From contig JAJTXV010000002.1 in assembly GCA_021463845.1 (NCBI GenBank), forward strand, positions 1 to 40,961: a stretch of DNA of 40,961 bases. The letters run 5' to 3'. Below, in pieces: positions 15,613-26,285 of this stretch. How positions within the stretch are numbered: the first letter of the stretch is position 1; every line of letters begins with the position of its first letter. The notes under the pieces were generated by a model. It was not told where the DNA came from, did not search any database, and saw only the letters and a list, made by a program, of their open reading frames with translations. Both the position numbers and the translations under genes were made by a program. This DNA is from Anaerolineales bacterium. GTDB taxonomy: Bacteria > Chloroflexota > Anaerolineae > Anaerolineales > UBA11579.

Positions 15613-17103
15613 ATGTATATGTCAAGCCATCGCTCGCGCGCCCTCCATCTTGCTCTCAGCGCCCTGCTGCTCACCAGCATCGCCTGCCGCACGCTGCTCG
15701 GCGATCTTGACCTCGAGCGTGACAGTGAGCTCACTTTGCGACCCACGCCGCAAGCCACCCAAGTGCGGCCGGCCGCACTTGGCGGCCGCTTGGATGGCTT
15801 GCAGCTGCTGCCCGATCTCACCATTCGCCCGCCATCCCTCAGCCCCGCTGACCATGACCGCCCCCGGCTCAGCGGCACCATGTACGTCCTGGATACGGAT
15901 AACTTTCGCATTCACTACACGTTGGATGGCGAAGATGCCGTCCCCGCAGGCCAGAGCACCGATAGCGGCCACCCCGACTACGTGATCGAGGTTGCCCGCG
16001 CCATGGAGTATTCCTGGTTCGCCTCGATCGACCACTTCGGCTGGGCGCCACCGCCGCCAGACTTTGGCCTGGGCGGCGATGACCGCTACGACGTCTACCT
16101 CATGAACATCATGGACGAGGATTACGCTGGCTACACCGACTCCGACTATGACAACCCGGTCATCGGCGACAATCCCAACAGCCCCTTGGTAGAGATCGCC
16201 TCCACGCACACGCATCTGGTGCTGGACAACGACTACCTTGAGGATTACGAGTACAACGAAGACGGCACCTATCCTGAAGACGCCTTGGATTACATGCGCA
16301 GCACCGCTGCCCATGAATTCCATCACGCCATTCAGTTCGGCTACGATGGCGAAGAGCCGCACGACTGGGTCTGGGAGGCTACCTCCACCTGGATAGAAGA
16401 AGAGCTGTTCGATAGCGTCAACGATCCCATTCGCACCCTCGACTCTGTAATGAAGTCCCCGGACTCTTGTCAGCTGGCTGAGGGTGGTGAGGTGCACGAT
16501 GAAGATCTGGACCGTTGGTACGGCATGTGGATCTTCATGCGTCACTTGTCAGAACAATACGGGCATGAAATCATCCTACGCCTATGGGAGCACATCATCG
16601 AGTTGGACGGATACAACGCCTGGGATGCCACGCTGGCCGAATACAACACCACCTTGGAGGATGTATTCCTCGATTACAGCGTCGCGCTCTTGACCCGCAA
16701 CTTCGAGGAGGGCTTGCGCTATCCCACAGTCGCGCTCGAAGGTCCACTGGCACTGGACGAATGGTTCAGCCCTCCCGATGGGGTGCATCAATTAGGCGCT
16801 GACTACCTCAGCGTGCCGTTCCAGCAGCCCATCACCATCACTTTGGATGCCGAGGGCATGCTGGCCGTCGTAGTGGGTATTGCCGAAGGCGAGAGCTACA
16901 TCTACCCCATGTGGGAGGGCGCCATCAGTCTGGATAGCAGCTGGCACGAGCGCACCTATGTGGTCGTCATGAATATGGAACGCGCCGTCAACGCCCGCAA
17001 CTGCCTCAGCAGCGACTATTACATGTACCTTGCCCCCGGCGGCGCCGCTCAGGAGCCGGAGTGGAACCTGGCGGCCCCCAACTTTCAGCCGCCGCGGCCG
17101 TAA
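15613..17103 (+). CDS. Lipoprotein zinc metalloprotease (MXAN_6640-like)
   Basis: Probably a secreted, lipid-anchored peptidase. The N-terminus is a lipoprotein signal with the lipobox ending at Cys25 (TSIAC). The zinc motif is H234-E-F-H-H238 in AAHEFHHAIQFGYD. It is followed 17 residues later by WEATSTWIEEE (254-264), whose Glu255 is a candidate third ligand, as in gluzincins. The protein is acidic overall (many Asp, Glu and Tyr). The pattern HEF.HAIQFGYD...W.EAT.TW.E is that of the MXAN_6640 family of putative metalloproteases. The C-terminal 130 residues look like a beta-sandwich. ATG codons at positions 1 and 3 are both possible; the ribosome binding site is weak. Substrate unknown. Confidence 0.72.
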   Translation: MYMSSHRSRALHLALSALLLTSIACRTLLGDLDLERDSELTLRPTPQATQVRPAALGGRLDGLQLLPDLTIRPPSLSPADHDRPRLSGTMYVLDTDNFRIHYTLDGEDAVPAGQSTDSGHPDYVIEVARAMEYSWFASIDHFGWAPPPPDFGLGGDDRYDVYLMNIMDEDYAGYTDSDYDNPVIGDNPNSPLVEIASTHTHLVLDNDYLEDYEYNEDGTYPEDALDYMRSTAAHEFHHAIQFGYDGEEPHDWVWEATSTWIEEELFDSVNDPIRTLDSVMKSPDSCQLAEGGEVHDEDLDRWYGMWIFMRHLSEQYGHEIILRLWEHIIELDGYNAWDATLAEYNTTLEDVFLDYSVALLTRNFEEGLRYPTVALEGPLALDEWFSPPDGVHQLGADYLSVPFQQPITITLDAEGMLAVVVGIAEGESYIYPMWEGAISLDSSWHERTYVVVMNMERAVNARNCLSSDYYMYLAPGGAAQEPEWNLAAPNFQPPRP

Positions 17104-17185: not shown

Positions 17186-17854
17186 GTGAGAAATACCCAA
17201 AAAACCCTGATGCTTGTGCTGCTGGCCGGCGCGGTTTTGCTTGGCGCCTGCGGCGGTTCTGCTTCCAATACGGATGCAATCCTCACCGAAGCAGCTCAGA
17301 TCGCATTCCAAGCGCTCACCGAGACCGCCGCGGCGGCTCCGCCCACGGCTACCTTCACTCCGGTTCCGCCCACCCCCACCTTCACCGCTGAGCCGCCTAC
17401 CGCTACAGCCACGCTTGAAGGCGGTGTGACCCCCACGCCATTCCCGACCCAGGCACAACAGCAGCAGCCCAGCACCTCTGGCATTCCCTGCCTGCGCGCA
17501 AACTTGGAATGGGAATCTCACCCAGACGGTGTTCAGATCTACGCCGATATCCCCTTCACCAAAGTGTGGCGTCTGAAGAATACTGGCTCTTGCACTTGGG
17601 ACCGCGAGTTTGCCGCCATTTGGGTCCAGGGTGACCTGATGGGCGCCGAAACTGTAGTCGAGTTCACTGAAAACGAGATCGCACCGGGCGACTACGCCAT
17701 GGTTGAAGTCAGCATGCGTGCTCCTGACCGCTCTGGTTTCTACAAGGGCTACTGGATGCTGCGCGGTGATGGCGTTATTTTCGGTATCGGCAACAATGCT
17801 CGCTCATGGTTCTGGGTAGATATTGAAGTCCTGCCTGTGACCGAGGAAGACTAG
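17186..17854 (+). CDS. Lipoprotein with NBR1-like Ig domain
   Basis: A 222-residue cell-surface lipoprotein. The signal peptide ends in LLGAC (Cys22). A Thr/Pro-rich linker of about 50 residues with repeated PPTATFTP-like units follows, then a globular domain from about residue 100. That domain carries FTKVWRLKNTGSCTWDREFA and later GFYKGYWMLRGDG, the pattern of the NBR1-type Ig-like domain seen in many Chloroflexota surface proteins, where it is thought to mediate binding. It has no catalytic motif. The start is GTG with GAGGTG 5 bases upstream. A strong terminator follows, so it forms a one-gene unit or ends one with the metalloprotease. Confidence 0.8.
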   Translation: MRNTQKTLMLVLLAGAVLLGACGGSASNTDAILTEAAQIAFQALTETAAAAPPTATFTPVPPTPTFTAEPPTATATLEGGVTPTPFPTQAQQQQPSTSGIPCLRANLEWESHPDGVQIYADIPFTKVWRLKNTGSCTWDREFAAIWVQGDLMGAETVVEFTENEIAPGDYAMVEVSMRAPDRSGFYKGYWMLRGDGVIFGIGNNARSWFWVDIEVLPVTEED

Positions 17855-18944: not shown

Positions 18945-21506
18945 ATGCAACGCAATCGCATTTTGGCGCTGTTCAGCATCCTGCTAATCGCTAGCTTGGT
19001 GCTGGGTGCGTGCCAGCCGACTGCCGAAGCTACGGCCACTGAAGCACCGGTCGAAGCTACGGAAGCCCCGGCAACTGAAGCCCCTCCTGCTACCACCCGT
19101 GTGGGTGGCTGGCTGGATGAGATCGGTATGAAGGTCGTGGGCGCCGACTCCGCAATCACCCAGATTGCTGCCGGCGACATCGACATCTATACCTCGAACC
19201 TCTCCCGCCCGCAGGATGTGCAGGCTGCTGACGCAGCCGGCCTGGAGCGCTCGTTCCAGTACGGTATCTACTACGAGCTGACTTTCAACCCGGCCGTGGC
19301 TGAGGCAGGTAGTGTGGAGTTCCTGAACGGTACTCTGAACCCCTTCACCAACGCCACCATCCGCAAGGCGATGAACAACCTCATCGACCGTGACTACATC
19401 AACCAGGAAGTGTACGGCGGCCTGGGCACTCCGAAGTTCTTCTCGTTTGTGTCCGCGTTCCCCGACTACGCTCGCCACGTTGACGTGATCCGCGGCTTGG
19501 AAGCTCAGTTTGCCTATGACCCCGAGGGCGCCAATGCCACCATCTCCGCTGAGATGGAAGCCATGGGCGCTACCCTGGTGGATGGCAAGTGGAACTACAA
19601 CGGTTCCCCGGTCAACATCATCTTCTTGATCCGCACTGACTCTGACGGCACCCGTGTTCCGGTTGGTGACTACATCTCTAACCAGCTCGAGTCCATCGGC
19701 TTCACTGTGACCCGCCAGTACGGCACCTCTTCTGAGTTGGCCGCCCTGTGGGTGAGCGGTAACGCTCCGGATGGTCTGTGGCACATCTACACCGGCGCCT
19801 GGGGCGTTGGTGGTATCACCCGTGATGACGCCGCTGACTTCCAGTTCTTTGACTCCCCGGACAGCGCTTACGGCTTCACCACGCTGTGGCAGTCCTTCGA
19901 AGCCCAGATCAGCCCTGAGTACCGCGCCTTGGCCAATGACCTGGCTAACGCCAACTACTCTTCACTGGATGAGCGCAAGGAAATGGTCAGCCAGGCCCTG
20001 CAGTACGCTGCTGACAGCGCCCTGCACGTTTGGTTGATCGACGGTCAGGCCTTCAGCCCGTGGCAGCCCAACGTTTCCGTGGCTTTTGACTTGGCCGCTG
20101 GCGTTGACATCAACCCGCTGACCGCCTTCACTCTGCGCTTTGACGATCAAGAGGGTGGCACCCTGCAATGGGGTACCCCTGACATCTTCGTCGAGCCCGC
20201 CAACCCGATCGGTGGTAGCAACTGGACCTACGACAACCAGTGGCAGCTGCTGACCCGTGACTCCGCTGTGCTGCTGAACCCGCACACCGGTATCCCCCTG
20301 CCGCAGCGCCTCGAAAGCGCTGAAGTGTACGCGCAGGAAGGCCTGCCCATCGGTACCACCTACGACTGGGTTGACCTGAGCTTCGTTGCTAGCAACGATG
20401 TTCCGGCTGACGCCTGGATCGACTGGAACCCCGAGACTGAGACCTTCATCACCGTCGGTGAGGCTTACCCCGATGGCCTGAGCTCTCTGATCAAGACCGT
20501 CGTCACCTACCCCTCCTCCCTCTATGATCGCACCTGGCACGATGGCAGCCCGATGACCGCGGCTGACTTCATCATGCCCATGATCATGACGTTTGCCACT
20601 GGCACCGAAGGCAGCCCCATCTACGATGAGGCCGCTGCCGGTGGTTTGGCTGCGTTCAAGGGCGGCTTCAAGGGTTGGCGCGTAGTTTCCACCGACCCGC
20701 TGAGCATTGAGTACTACACTGACGTGTGGACTCAGGACGCTGAGCTGATCGCTGGCGCTGGCGCCGCTACCCTGTGGCCGGAGTACGGTTACGGTAACGC
20801 CGGCTGGCACGCCATTGCGGCTGCCAACTGGGCCGAGGCTGAAGGCGAACTCGCCTACACCCCGGACAAGGCCGTTCAGGCCGAGGTGGAGCAGACCAAC
20901 TTCGTTGGTGGCCCCAGCTTGGAAGTGCTGGCCTCCTACCTGCAGCGTGGTGCTGACGAGGGTTACATTCCCTTCGCCGCCACCATGGGTGCTTACGTAA
21001 CCGCCGAAGAGGCGACTGCCCGCTACAACAACCTGCTGGACTTCTATGGCCAGTACGGTCACGTGTGGTCTGGTGTTGGTCCTTACATCCTCGAGCAGGC
21101 TCTGCTGGTGGAGAAGACCGCCGTTCTGGTGCACAACCCGAACTTCACCGACCTGGCTGACAAGTGGTCCGCTTTCGCGGCTCCCAAGGTTGCCACTGCT
21201 GAGATCGATGGCTCCGCCCGCGTAACCGTGGGTGAAGAGGCCACCTTCGACGTTCTGGTGTCCTTCGAGGGCGCTCCTTACCCGGCCGACGAGATCTCCA
21301 GCGTGAGCTATCTGCTGTACAACGCAGAGGGCGCTCTGGTTGAGACCGGCCCCGCCGAGTTGAGCGCTGACGGCCACTACGTGGTCACCCTGAGTGGTGA
21401 ATCCACTGCTGCCCTGGGCGCTGGCTCCAACAAGCTGGAAGTTGCTGTTGTTGCCATCCCGGTCAGCATCCCGGCCTTCGCCACCTTCGACTTTGTGACC
21501 GAGTAA
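18945..21506 (+). CDS. Family-5 ABC substrate-binding lipoprotein, domain order permuted
   Basis: An extracytoplasmic solute-binding lipoprotein (lipobox VLGAC, Cys23; Ala/Thr/Glu-rich linker to about 53) for the ABC transporter encoded downstream, probably for peptides. At 853 residues it is much longer than the usual 500-600. Landmarks of the family-5 fold appear in swapped order. The motif that normally follows lobe I (WLDEI at 56-60, IAAGDIDIY at 74-82) and the lobe II motif IRKAMNNLIDRD (139-150) come first. The normally N-terminal elements come later: GGTLQWGTPD at 404, WHDGSPMTAADF at 531, GVGPYIL at 710 and HNPNF at 730. An Ig-like tail covers about 750-853. Codon use (GCT, GGT, CGT, GAC, AAC) differs from its neighbours and suggests high expression. 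A GGAGGAG site precedes the ATG. Confidence 0.88.
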   Translation: MQRNRILALFSILLIASLVLGACQPTAEATATEAPVEATEAPATEAPPATTRVGGWLDEIGMKVVGADSAITQIAAGDIDIYTSNLSRPQDVQAADAAGLERSFQYGIYYELTFNPAVAEAGSVEFLNGTLNPFTNATIRKAMNNLIDRDYINQEVYGGLGTPKFFSFVSAFPDYARHVDVIRGLEAQFAYDPEGANATISAEMEAMGATLVDGKWNYNGSPVNIIFLIRTDSDGTRVPVGDYISNQLESIGFTVTRQYGTSSELAALWVSGNAPDGLWHIYTGAWGVGGITRDDAADFQFFDSPDSAYGFTTLWQSFEAQISPEYRALANDLANANYSSLDERKEMVSQALQYAADSALHVWLIDGQAFSPWQPNVSVAFDLAAGVDINPLTAFTLRFDDQEGGTLQWGTPDIFVEPANPIGGSNWTYDNQWQLLTRDSAVLLNPHTGIPLPQRLESAEVYAQEGLPIGTTYDWVDLSFVASNDVPADAWIDWNPETETFITVGEAYPDGLSSLIKTVVTYPSSLYDRTWHDGSPMTAADFIMPMIMTFATGTEGSPIYDEAAAGGLAAFKGGFKGWRVVSTDPLSIEYYTDVWTQDAELIAGAGAATLWPEYGYGNAGWHAIAAANWAEAEGELAYTPDKAVQAEVEQTNFVGGPSLEVLASYLQRGADEGYIPFAATMGAYVTAEEATARYNNLLDFYGQYGHVWSGVGPYILEQALLVEKTAVLVHNPNFTDLADKWSAFAAPKVATAEIDGSARVTVGEEATFDVLVSFEGAPYPADEISSVSYLLYNAEGALVETGPAELSADGHYVVTLSGESTAALGAGSNKLEVAVVAIPVSIPAFATFDFVTE

Positions 21507-21695: not shown

Positions 21696-22835
21696 ATGAG
21701 TGTTACTACGCCCGATCTTGAGGCGCCGTCAGGCGTACCTCAGGAACAAACCACGAGTCCCAAACGCAAGACCAGCACGTTTGCCCGCGTAGCCAAGTAC
21801 ACCCTGCTCAAATTCGCCAGCATCTTTCTGAGCGTGATTGTGGCAGTGTACTTGACCATTTTGATCGCCAATATGGGCGGTTACGTTGACCAAATTGTGC
21901 GCGGTCAGATCCGCGAATTCATCGGCCAGCAGCTGCGCGCCGATCAGAACTATCAGCAAATGGATCCTGCGCAGAAGAATGAGTTCTTCCTGGCTCAGGT
22001 TGAGCGTGCTGAGAAGCGCTACGGCCTTGACAAGCCGTTTGCGGTACGCAGCCTGACTTTCTTGTGGAATGCCATTCGCATGGACTTTGGTACGGCGCAA
22101 TTAATGGCCAGCGACACCGGCTCTCGCCAGGTGAAGTTGATCATCCTTGACCGCCTGGGGCCAACACTATTGCTAGTTGGGGCGTCAAACCTGCTTCTTT
22201 TCTTTGGCAGCATTGCCCTGGCGCTCATGCTATCGCGCTCCTACGGCAACTTCTGGGATAAGCTGATCATCGGTTTCTCGCCAACCTCATCGGCGCCTTC
22301 ATGGTTCTATGGCTTATTCTTAATCCTTCTCTTCGCGGCGGTGCTCAGGTGGCTTCCCTTTGGCGGCATGATCGACTCCCCGCCGCCACGTGACCAGCTG
22401 GGCTATATACTGAATGTTGGTAAGCACTTGATTTTGCCCACCCTGGCCATCATTCTGAGCAACCTTTTTATCAGTATTTACAACTGGCGCACATTCTTCC
22501 TGATCTACTCCAGTGAAGACTATGTTGAAATGGCTAAGGCCAAGGGTTTGAGCGACCGCGACATTCAATATCGCTACATCCTTCGCCCCACCCTGCCCAC
22601 CATCATCACTAGCTTCGCCTTGCTTGTCATCGGCCTCTGGACTGGCCTGATCCTTACTGAAGGCGTCTTCCAGTGGCCCGGCTTGGGCCGCACCTTCATC
22701 ACTGCGATCGGTCTTTACGACACTCCGGTGATCGTGGCACTAACCATCATCTATGCGTATCTTCTGGCGATCACGGTCTTTGTACTCGACTTCGTTTACG
22801 CCTTGGTTGATCCGCGTGTGAAAATTGGCAGCTAA
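21696..22835 (+). CDS. Peptide-type ABC transporter permease (OppB/DppB-like)
   Basis: A membrane subunit of the importer. The 379-residue protein has a cytoplasmic N-terminal extension of about 30 polar residues, a first membrane helix (about 39-60), a long extracytoplasmic segment to about 130, and then five further helices. The EAA-type loop that contacts the ATPase reads EDYVEMAKAKGLSDRDIQYR, followed by RPTLP. The end VLDFVYALVDPRVK is typical of the OppB family. A good AAGGAG site lies 7 bases before the ATG. The 190-base gap from the binding protein holds the palindrome and an AT-rich stretch that may contain a weak promoter. Confidence 0.93.
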   Translation: MSVTTPDLEAPSGVPQEQTTSPKRKTSTFARVAKYTLLKFASIFLSVIVAVYLTILIANMGGYVDQIVRGQIREFIGQQLRADQNYQQMDPAQKNEFFLAQVERAEKRYGLDKPFAVRSLTFLWNAIRMDFGTAQLMASDTGSRQVKLIILDRLGPTLLLVGASNLLLFFGSIALALMLSRSYGNFWDKLIIGFSPTSSAPSWFYGLFLILLFAAVLRWLPFGGMIDSPPPRDQLGYILNVGKHLILPTLAIILSNLFISIYNWRTFFLIYSSEDYVEMAKAKGLSDRDIQYRYILRPTLPTIITSFALLVIGLWTGLILTEGVFQWPGLGRTFITAIGLYDTPVIVALTIIYAYLLAITVFVLDFVYALVDPRVKIGS

Positions 22836-22862
22836 AACTAAGAAAAACAAGGTGAATCGAAG

Positions 22863-24209
22863 ATGCAAGGAATAATCAAGGGCTTTCAACAGCTCCTCAA
22901 GTATCCCAGCGCCGTTATTGGCCTGGCGCTCATCGCGATCCTGTTCATCGTGTCAATTCTCACGGTGATCATCATCCCGCGCGATGAGGCCATTCGCCTA
23001 TGGCGCGGCGGTGAAGCCATCTGGGGCCAAAATCCCAAGACGGTACCCCCGGCGTGGACGAATTTGTTCCGCTCCAAGAAGCTCCCGGAGACGATCGTGC
23101 TGACCATGACCGACGAGTCAGTACAGTCAGAGATAAATGAACGCGCCGAAGGCGAAAACCGCATTATGGTGTATAGCTTCAACTACATCGCCGACGAAGC
23201 TCCGCAAGACGTTGTTTTCAGCTTTACTTCGCGCTATGCAACCCGCAACCCGTTTGTAAGCATTTTCTGGGTTACCCCTGACGGGCGTGAAATTCGGCTG
23301 ATGGAACAGGGCATCAACTACAACTTCAGCTACCGCGCCACGCAGGACACTAAACTGAGCCGCCGTCTTGGGGGGTTAAGCCCTGAGATCGGTCTGTTTG
23401 ACAACCCGGAAACAGAAGCGGTTGATGTACTCAAAGGCCAATACCAGATCGTGATCGACTACCTGACTTTTGAGAATGATTCGTCAATCTCCAAGGCAGA
23501 TGTGATCATCCACGGCAAGGTGTACGGCCTGTTCGGCACCGACCACCAGCGCCGCGATCTGACGATCGGCATTCTGTGGGGCGTGCCCATCGCGCTGGCC
23601 TTCGGTCTGGTAGCCTCCTTCGGCACATCCATCGCGGCGATCATCTTTGCCGCCCTGGGCGTGTGGTACGGTGGCTGGGTGGACGAGCTGATCCAGCGCA
23701 TCACCGAGATCAACCTCAATCTGCCAATCCTGAGCATTTTGATCATGATCGGCACCTTCTACTCGAAGAGCATCACAACCATTCTTGGCGCCACGGTGCT
23801 GCTGAGTATCTTCAGCGGCGCCATTAAGAGCTACCGCGCCATTTTTATGCAGGTGAAAGAGTCGCCTTATATTGAGGCCGCTCGCTCCTATGGCGCCAGC
23901 AGCTCGCGCATCATCTTCAACTACCTCATTCCTCGCGTAACCCCGCTGCTGATCCCGGGGCTGGTGCTGGGCGTGCCTTCCTTCGTGTTCCTGGAAGCGA
24001 CCCTGGCCTCCTTGAACCTGGGTGACCCGGTACTGCCCACTTGGGGCAAGATCATCTACGAGGCGTGGGGAACAGGCGGCGCTGTGTACAATGGCTTCTA
24101 TTACTGGATCTTGGAGCCTGCGATCCTTCTGATCATCACCGGCTTGGGCTTTGCGCTGGTAGGTTTTGCGATGGACCGCATTTTCAATCCTCGCCTGCGC
24201 GACATCTAA
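22863..24209 (+). CDS. Peptide-type ABC transporter permease (OppC/DppC-like) with large insertion
   Basis: The second membrane subunit of the importer. At 448 residues it is about 150 longer than typical OppC/DppC. The first helix (about 17-38) is followed by a polar extracytoplasmic region to about residue 215, rich in beta-type sequence, before LFGTDHQRRDLTIGILWG, the normal start of the permease core. The EAA loop is SPYIEAARSYGASSSRIIFN. The C-terminus, DRIFNPRLRDI, is typical of the family. It lies 27 bases after the OppB-like gene with AAGGTG upstream. The insertion may contact the unusual binding protein. Confidence 0.93.
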   Translation: MQGIIKGFQQLLKYPSAVIGLALIAILFIVSILTVIIIPRDEAIRLWRGGEAIWGQNPKTVPPAWTNLFRSKKLPETIVLTMTDESVQSEINERAEGENRIMVYSFNYIADEAPQDVVFSFTSRYATRNPFVSIFWVTPDGREIRLMEQGINYNFSYRATQDTKLSRRLGGLSPEIGLFDNPETEAVDVLKGQYQIVIDYLTFENDSSISKADVIIHGKVYGLFGTDHQRRDLTIGILWGVPIALAFGLVASFGTSIAAIIFAALGVWYGGWVDELIQRITEINLNLPILSILIMIGTFYSKSITTILGATVLLSIFSGAIKSYRAIFMQVKESPYIEAARSYGASSSRIIFNYLIPRVTPLLIPGLVLGVPSFVFLEATLASLNLGDPVLPTWGKIIYEAWGTGGAVYNGFYYWILEPAILLIITGLGFALVGFAMDRIFNPRLRDI

Positions 24210-24236
24210 ACCGAGAAGAAAGACGATTCAATCCTC

Positions 24237-25217
24237 ATGACGAACAAGACGCTACTCAAAGTAGAAGACCTCACCCTGTCCTTCCGCACTGCCAAAGGGG
24301 TCGTGCAGGCGGTGGACAAGGTTGAGTTTGAAATGCCATCCAACCAGGCTGTGGTGGTGATCGGCGAGTCTGGCTGTGGCAAGACTTCCTTTGCCAAAGC
24401 CCTGCTGCGCCTGCTGCCCCGCAACATTGAGGAGTACAGCGGCCGCGTATACCTGGATGGTCAGGACACAATGGCCCTGGATGACGAGACCTACCGCCAG
24501 GACATTCGCTGGGCCAAGATCTCCATGGTGCCTCAGGCCGCCATGAACTCGCTCAACCCCGTGCTGCGGGTGGGCGAGCAGGTGGCCGAGCCGCTGATCG
24601 TCCACTTTGGCATGACCCAGGCTGAAGCTCTGGAAAAAGCCAAGGACATGTTCCGCAAAGTCGGCGTGCCGGTCGATTTCCTGGACCGTTACGCCTTTGA
24701 GCTTAGCGGTGGTATGCGCCAACGCGTTGCCATTGCAATGGCGTTGGTCACCAACCCCAAGCTGATCACGCTGGATGAGCCGACCTCGGCGTTGGATCTG
24801 CTGACCCAGGCCAACATCATGAACCTGCTTAAGCGGGTGAAGAAGGAAACGGATGCCAGCTTTATTCTGATCACCCACGACATCGCCACCTCCAGTGAGC
24901 TGGCTGACCGCGTGGTGGTGATGTATGCCGGCCAGATCGTGGAAGATGCAGATTCTGCTCGCTTCTTTACCCAGCCGCTGCACCCGTACTCACAGAAGCT
25001 GATGGCCAGCGTGCCGCGTCTGCGCGAGACGGTTGAGCCTGAATTCATCACGGGCCAACCCCCCAGTCTGATCAACCCGCCCACGGGCTGCCGCTTTGCC
25101 GAGCGCTGCCCCAAGCGTTTTGACAAATGCACCCAGGATCCTCCTCTGTTTGAAGTTGAGAACCGCTATGTGAAGTGCTGGTTGTACGAACCCGGTGGCA
25201 AGGAGCGCAAAAACTAA
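24237..25217 (+). CDS. Peptide-type ABC transporter ATPase (OppD/DppD-like)
   Basis: A cytoplasmic ATPase that powers import. The 326-residue protein has Walker A GESGCGKT (43-50), a Q-loop around VPQAAMNSLNP, the signature LSGGMRQRVAIAMAL, Walker B LITLDEPTSALD and the switch His in LITHDIA. The oligopeptide-transporter C-terminal domain carries a Cys pattern GCRFAERCPKRFDKC with a later KCW. In some family members such cysteines bind an iron-sulfur cluster. It is followed without a gap by the second ATPase. Confidence 0.95.
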   Translation: MTNKTLLKVEDLTLSFRTAKGVVQAVDKVEFEMPSNQAVVVIGESGCGKTSFAKALLRLLPRNIEEYSGRVYLDGQDTMALDDETYRQDIRWAKISMVPQAAMNSLNPVLRVGEQVAEPLIVHFGMTQAEALEKAKDMFRKVGVPVDFLDRYAFELSGGMRQRVAIAMALVTNPKLITLDEPTSALDLLTQANIMNLLKRVKKETDASFILITHDIATSSELADRVVVMYAGQIVEDADSARFFTQPLHPYSQKLMASVPRLRETVEPEFITGQPPSLINPPTGCRFAERCPKRFDKCTQDPPLFEVENRYVKCWLYEPGGKERKN

Positions 25218-26285
25218 ATGGCTACAAAGAAGACTACCTCGGCCAAGGCCGCGGTCAACAACAACGAGAATCCCAACGCTCCGTTGCTTTCTGTCAAGAA
25301 CCTGCGCGTATGGTTTGAGTTGCGCCGTTTTGGTTTCGGCAACGCAGGCTATGTGCGCGCTGTGGATGGCGTCACCTTTGATCTGCATGAAGGCGAAGCC
25401 ATCGCCATCGTAGGTGAAAGTGGCTGTGGTAAATCCAGCCTGATGAAGACCATCCTGGGCCTTAACACCCCGACGGAGGGCTCGATCGTTTTCAAGGGCC
25501 GCGATATCAGCAATTTCAACCGCCAGGATCTGGAGTGGTATCGCTCGCTGATCGGCTATGTTCAGCAGGATCCCTTTGGCTCGCTGGCGCCCTTCATGAC
25601 CATTGAGCGCATTCTTGAAGAGCCGCTGATCATTCACGGCATCAAGGACAAAGAAGAGCGCATGCGCCGCATCAACAAGGTGATGGAGGAAGTCAAACTC
25701 ACTCCACAAGCTGAAGTGTTGCCCAAGTTCCCCCACCAGATCAGCGGTGGCCAGGCCCAACGCGTAGTGATCGCCCGCGCCATGATCCTGGAGCCCAAGT
25801 TCATCGTTGCTGACGAGCCTGTCTCCATGCTGGACGCTTCGGTGCGTGTGGAGATCCTCAAGCTGCTGCGTGACCTTCAGTCCAGCCACAAACTGGCTGT
25901 GATCTACATCACTCACGATCTTTCCACGGTGCGTTATTTCTCTGAGCGCATCTTCGTAATGTATGCCGGCCAGTTGATCGAGAAGGCCCCCATGGAGGCC
26001 CTGCTCAAGAACGCCCGCCATCCCTATACGCAAGCCCTGTTGGCCGCCACCTCTGACCCGGATGCCAACAACGCGCTGCACTACAAGGATGTGCCCCCCG
26101 GCGAGCCGCCCAGCTTGGTGAAGCCGCCCACAGGCTGCCGCTTCCACCCGCGCTGCTCGCACTATATGGAAGGTCTGTGCAATCTGCAGGACCCGCCCGA
26201 GGTCTCGCCTGAGCCAAACTACCTGACCTCCTGCTGGCTGTACGACCCGGAATTAGAGGTGAAACTTGCTGAGGCTCAGCGCTAA
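25218..26285 (+). CDS. Peptide-type ABC transporter ATPase (OppF/DppF-like)
   Basis: The partner ATPase of the importer. The 355-residue protein has a polar N-terminal extension of about 20 residues. It has Walker A GESGCGKSS, QQDPFGSL at the Q-loop, the signature ISGGQAQRVVIARAM, Walker B FIVADEPVSMLD and the switch His in YITHDLS. The C-terminal domain has the family Cys motif (GCRFHPRCSHYMEGLC, then SCW). The ATG immediately follows the stop of the preceding ATPase gene. Confidence 0.95.
   Translation: MATKKTTSAKAAVNNNENPNAPLLSVKNLRVWFELRRFGFGNAGYVRAVDGVTFDLHEGEAIAIVGESGCGKSSLMKTILGLNTPTEGSIVFKGRDISNFNRQDLEWYRSLIGYVQQDPFGSLAPFMTIERILEEPLIIHGIKDKEERMRRINKVMEEVKLTPQAEVLPKFPHQISGGQAQRVVIARAMILEPKFIVADEPVSMLDASVRVEILKLLRDLQSSHKLAVIYITHDLSTVRYFSERIFVMYAGQLIEKAPMEALLKNARHPYTQALLAATSDPDANNALHYKDVPPGEPPSLVKPPTGCRFHPRCSHYMEGLCNLQDPPEVSPEPNYLTSCWLYDPELEVKLAEAQR

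Follow-up and report, generated by a model that had tools for sequence, protein, structure and literature searches.

A family-5 substrate-binding protein of an Anaerolineales bacterium is very probably a natural circular permutant and belongs to a family widespread in archaea and bacteria

To our knowledge, ABC binding proteins that are circularly permuted in nature have rarely been described. The one precedent that we found is MglB-2 (Tp0684) of Treponema pallidum, a natural circularly permuted glucose-binding lipoprotein that has retained its function; its authors proposed anchoring as the reason for the rearrangement and considered that the moved part possibly came from a different gene (PMC4990184). 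A search of the literature on circular permutation in OppA, family 5, solute-binding proteins and Chloroflexi yielded no family-5 case within open-access papers. Natural permutation of a binding protein is thus already known, and the family-5 case described here appears to be new within the open-access literature searched. TpMglB-2 shares with our protein the natural permutation of a two-lobed ABC binding lipoprotein; however, it belongs to cluster B (type I) and is cut at another site, whereas the protein described here belongs to cluster C (family 5). The best match to both blocks of our protein, by sequence as well as by structure, is OppA of Thermococcus kodakarensis (TkOppA, PDB 7fi3), an archaeal Opp-type protein that was crystallised with a pentapeptide according to the title of the entry. 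The two proteins have in common large insertions and the dGKW..ngepv motif. The order of TkOppA is canonical, whereas in our protein residues 54-402 precede residues 404-735 and an Ig-like domain is added.

The window, that is, the whole stretch of 40,961 nucleotides of Anaerolineales DNA that was analysed, carries a gene whose product had been read in a first-pass annotation as a circularly permuted family-5 binding protein with an Ig-like tail. The open reading frame encodes exactly 853 amino acids, and the following features were assigned to it:

18945..21506, plus strand: gene of the circularly permuted family-5 substrate-binding protein, a putative lipoprotein of 853 aa (ORF, Pfam, AlphaFold2 model, rotation scan)
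18945..19013, plus strand: signal peptide with lipobox LVLGAC and putatively lipidated Cys23 (sequence; like the leaders in most bacterial homologues)
19104..20150, plus strand: residues 54-402, the canonical C-terminal-half block (WLDEI, GDIDIY, IRKAMNNLIDR), first in the chain (Pfam 148-357; 7fi3; DppA 1dpp)
20154..21149, plus strand: residues 404-735, the canonical N-terminal-half block (GGTL, WHDGSPMTAADF, GVGPYIL, HNPNF), second in the chain (7fi3; 404-443 by motif only)
21183..21503, plus strand: residues 747-853, Ig-like C-terminal domain (VIA-align)

The family motifs were found where they had been placed, namely G54/W56/D58, R140..D148-R149, G404-G405, W531-H532-D533-G534, G712-P713 and HNPNF near 730, and most of these residues are invariant or nearly so among 15 homologues. 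The GGTLQWG motif (404-410) is likewise present; its equivalence to the canonical first strand was assigned from motif and position only, residues 403-443 lying outside every alignment. The Ig-like tail claimed after the permuted core was borne out by VIA-align, in which residues 747-853 matched alpha-2-macroglobulin MG, PKD and filamin-type Ig folds with Z scores of 10-12. The domain occurs in most homologues of the family, and some are without it.

A profile search with PF00496 (SBP_bac_5) gave the protein a score of 84.4 bits, above the curated cut-off of 32.4, distributed over two stretches in an order that differs from the collinear canonical one. The better stretch pairs residues 57-297 with profile positions 148-357. 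It had been predicted that, after splitting, the C-terminal half would match the start of the profile and the N-terminal half its end. This agrees with the result: the C half searched alone aligned with the early positions 28-140, although weakly (E 0.013), and the first block with 148-357, residues 54-402 giving an E value of 4.2e-21. The same order is contained in a single frame of 838 aa in the homologue L012 (genome G302), where profile positions 148-350 are matched first (E 1.3e-25) and 18-141 second (E 7.8e-6). When a profile of the 15 homologues was compared with solved structures, 7fi3 ranked first, with profile positions 54-295 aligned to its residues 324-585 (E 5.2e-26) and positions 466-719 to residues 63-306 (E 3.9e-13); a profile of the C half only found 7fi3 at 2.1e-14. 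A single collinear SBP_bac_5 match is ruled out by the swapped matches to the PF00496 profile and to 7fi3. A frame or annotation artefact is ruled out as well, because the swapped order is kept by 15 homologues at 40-96% identity, most of them with a leader peptide. The window protein is a permuted variant of SBP_bac_5, set apart from the ordinary members. NCBIfam gave only sub-threshold matches for the protein and its relatives, and a tblastn search of the plasmid collection gave no match.

In a rotation test, residues 54-748 of the family alignment were scored by HHalign against a profile built from nine canonical members of family 5. The unrotated alignment scored 144 over 298 columns, whereas the rotated one reached 192 over 423 columns, with a plateau over all rotation points sampled between 405 and 510. 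For control, the nine canonical proteins were rotated one by one and compared with a profile of the remaining ones; every one had its top score without rotation or no more than 20 residues away from there, and the score fell by about a third to a half at mid-rotation. Rotation restores collinearity for the permuted family, and the canonical controls need none.

The AlphaFold2 model of the full protein, built from a shallow alignment of 15 rows, had a pLDDT of 84.8 and a pTM of 0.81, the latter suggesting one packed unit in the prediction. In VIA-align superpositions, residues 54-402 of the model paired with 7fi3 348-755 (Z 27.0, rmsd 2.5, 341 residues) and with DppA (1dpp) 209-507, where 507 is the last residue of DppA (Z 21.4); among the matches listed, the Foldseek and VIA-align rows for this block were of family-5 type. 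Residues 400-853 were folded separately (pLDDT 80.8), and 444-722 of this model paired with 7fi3 77-323 (Z 21.3, 238 residues); the rows after 7fi3 had Z scores of 12 and below and were Ig-like folds matched by 747-853. Ig folds dominated the results of Foldseek alone for the C half, and a second look with VIA-align recovered 7fi3. The family-5 fold was found in both predicted halves, and each half, placed on 7fi3 in a superposition run of its own, pairs once with the opposite half of this same crystal structure. The swapped profile matches, the rotation test and the half-by-half structure matches support the reading as a permutation, and we consider it very probable that this substrate-binding protein of family 5 (cluster C) is the product of a natural circular permutation.

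Searches with the family profile detected relatives in 29 of 301 Chloroflexota genomes (E 1e-30), in 117 of 200 genomes of Thermoproteota, the phylum of the archaeal relative L019 (E 1e-10), and in 12 of 199 genomes of a third phylum, that of L012 (Clostridiales). A survey of the order among homologues, proposed together with the original reading, found the permuted order in all 106 family ORFs; since these were gathered with the permuted profile, canonical-order cousins lie outside the count, which gives no estimate of their number. The 106 include about 20 archaeal regions that were fetched mainly for a partial or split match and were permuted as well. In a FastTree phylogeny with a midpoint root, some long branches and some inferred group names, the two main groups each have archaeal sequences around their base and sequences from Chloroflexota nested within, which suggests an archaeal home of the family and at least two transfers. 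The nesting of L012 among Chloroflexota may be due to transfer or mis-binning. A second, distant branch (L045-L050, L101, L104) comprises Chloroflexota and archaeal proteins that start near PGPA and suggests a separate transfer. At G256:C85 (L043, L051), two permuted genes stand in tandem, with the family match extending to about profile position 728 and without the Ig-like tail. The permuted form makes up a family that is old and widespread among archaea and bacteria and best represented in archaea.

The permuted gene heads a complete OppBCDF operon, whose downstream genes occupy positions 21696-26285 of the window:

21696..22835, plus strand: OppB-type permease (PF00528, E 3.8e-27; conserved synteny)
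22863..24209, plus strand: OppC-type permease, its transport domain preceded by about 150 extra residues (PF00528 at 258-446; conserved over the full length, archaeal relative included)
24237..25217, plus strand: OppD-type ATPase (ABC_tran and oligo_HPY; synteny)
25218..26285, plus strand: OppF-type ATPase (ABC_tran and oligo_HPY; synteny)

The order SBP-OppB-OppC-OppD-OppF is found in nearly all relatives with a long enough contig, including the archaeal L019, whose OppC shows 43% identity along its entire length; L016 and L018, where the contig ends, are the exceptions. The dN/dS ratio of the permuted gene against close relatives is 0.12-0.16, indicating purifying selection. The operon, the conserved synteny and the dN/dS values together make it most likely that the permuted protein works as the binding protein of the adjoining Opp importer. 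The extra stretch of OppC (window 23010-23477) lies between the first membrane helix and the transport domain and is conserved to the archaeal relative; it may serve the large binding protein as a docking domain. Two other genes of the window are found near the transporter in close relatives too. The one at 17186-17854 codes for a small protein in which PF16158 detects an Ig domain of the NBR1 type (E 6.8e-20), familiar mainly from the autophagy receptor NBR1. The other, at 15613-17103, encodes a lipoprotein-like protein with the metal-site motif HEFHH and a weak DUF6055 match, which is probably a surface metallopeptidase.

The length of the protein, 853 aa against about 550 in usual members, could be taken to indicate that a family-5 protein was duplicated in tandem, giving two complete pairs of lobes. 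However, the match of each half to the family is confined to the opposite half, and the extra length consists of the Ig domain, a linker and insertions common to 7fi3 (724 residues). With each half present once and the two matching different halves of 7fi3 and of the Pfam profile, a tandem duplication is ruled out, and we assign it a negligible probability. Blocks from different family-5 genes might instead have been joined in a chimaeric fusion, with no permutation of a single ancestor. Block 404-735 has diverged from family 5 much further than block 54-402 has (Pfam E 0.013 vs 4.2e-21), and a chimaera was also considered for TpMglB-2 (PMC4990184). We nevertheless regard such a fusion as quite improbable: 7fi3 is the best PDB match of both blocks, ahead of all other structures, which is expected if both derive from one TkOppA-like ancestor.

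A further explanation concerns the cause of the rearrangement, namely that the permutation is a specific adaptation by which an end was freed for a surface anchor and spacer, or for docking on the enlarged OppC. It would fit the division in anchoring, with an N-terminal lipid in bacteria (a lipobox in most Chloroflexota members) and a C-terminal hydrophobic helix in 47 of 50 archaeal members, and also the enlargement of OppC in the operons examined and the anchoring proposed for TpMglB-2 (PMC4990184). However, canonical family-5 proteins are anchored too, so that no permutation is needed for anchoring; moreover, the bacterial and archaeal members of the permuted family carry their anchors at opposite ends, and the Ig domain is missing from some permuted members. 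We therefore consider an adaptive cause rather unlikely.

For the circular permutation of a single ancestor, the reading that we prefer, the position of the cut had been placed between the HNPNF-like and WLDEI-like elements. Comparison with DppA gives the same position, the new ends falling in the loop that connects the RNP-Y element to the YLDEI strand. Lobe I of DppA comprises about residues 1-260 and 479-507; given these limits and the DppA comparison, the new ends are within lobe I, away from the hinge and the cleft. The trap mechanism is plausibly retained, because the cut lies inside lobe I and the old ends are bridged by few residues. The ancestral ends, side by side on lobe I, would have been joined via a linker of few residues at about 400-404 while the new ends opened in the surface loop, and such a gene may have arisen through duplication with trimming, or else through fission and fusion. 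The predicted fold of the permuted chain is still the usual trap of two lobes, which would be tethered by the N-terminal lipid and bear the Ig-like domain at its new C-terminus. We infer that binding and transport are retained and that the ligand, an oligopeptide or an oligosaccharide, would be captured and passed to the OppBCDF importer encoded just downstream. Family 5 binds oligosaccharides too, and early work reportedly described sugar-binding proteins of the oligopeptide class in Sulfolobus.

The same genome encodes a second permuted family-5 protein, P2 (G000:C15:42727-44388, minus strand; L002:901-2562, minus strand), and of the four family-5 genes detected there, two are permuted. The PF00496 matches of P2 are inverted, with profile positions 62-365 followed by 4-58. 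Against canonical Chloroflexota relatives, its residues 54-426 aligned to 207-591 (E 1e-57) and 427-522 to 77-172 (E 5e-21); against HbpA (3m8u), 54-423 aligned to 126-499 (E 1e-43) and 446-542 to 15-118 (E 3e-9). Rotation at 436 raised the score from 461 to 586. Relatives collinear with P2 are present in 22 of 151 sampled Chloroflexota genomes, its own included, the others having 46-60% identity, and the conservation of P2 extends across the order. DppA and HbpA are the closest relatives of P2, both halves of which match 3m8u and 1dpp at high significance; unlike in these proteins, the chain of P2 starts after the F-HDG-DVV helix. Owing to this relationship and this cut site, P2 is a permutation event independent of that of the window protein.

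The spread of the family, its archaeal weight and the differently cut permutant in the same genome had gone unseen in the first-pass annotation. The results reveal a large, conserved permuted family, present in the majority of the genomes sampled from one archaeal phylum. Annotation tools catch mostly half of each permuted protein, because the matches of Pfam and NCBIfam fall mainly in the first block. The occurrence of two differently cut permutants in one genome is a natural experiment on the relation between chain order, anchoring and trap closing in a fold that is used for biosensors too. It is likely that family 5 has undergone two or more independent permutations, each with its own cut point, and that one of the permutants founded a family which is old and dominant in archaea and has spread to Chloroflexota and other groups; permutation would thus be a path taken repeatedly in this fold, possibly for adaptive reasons.
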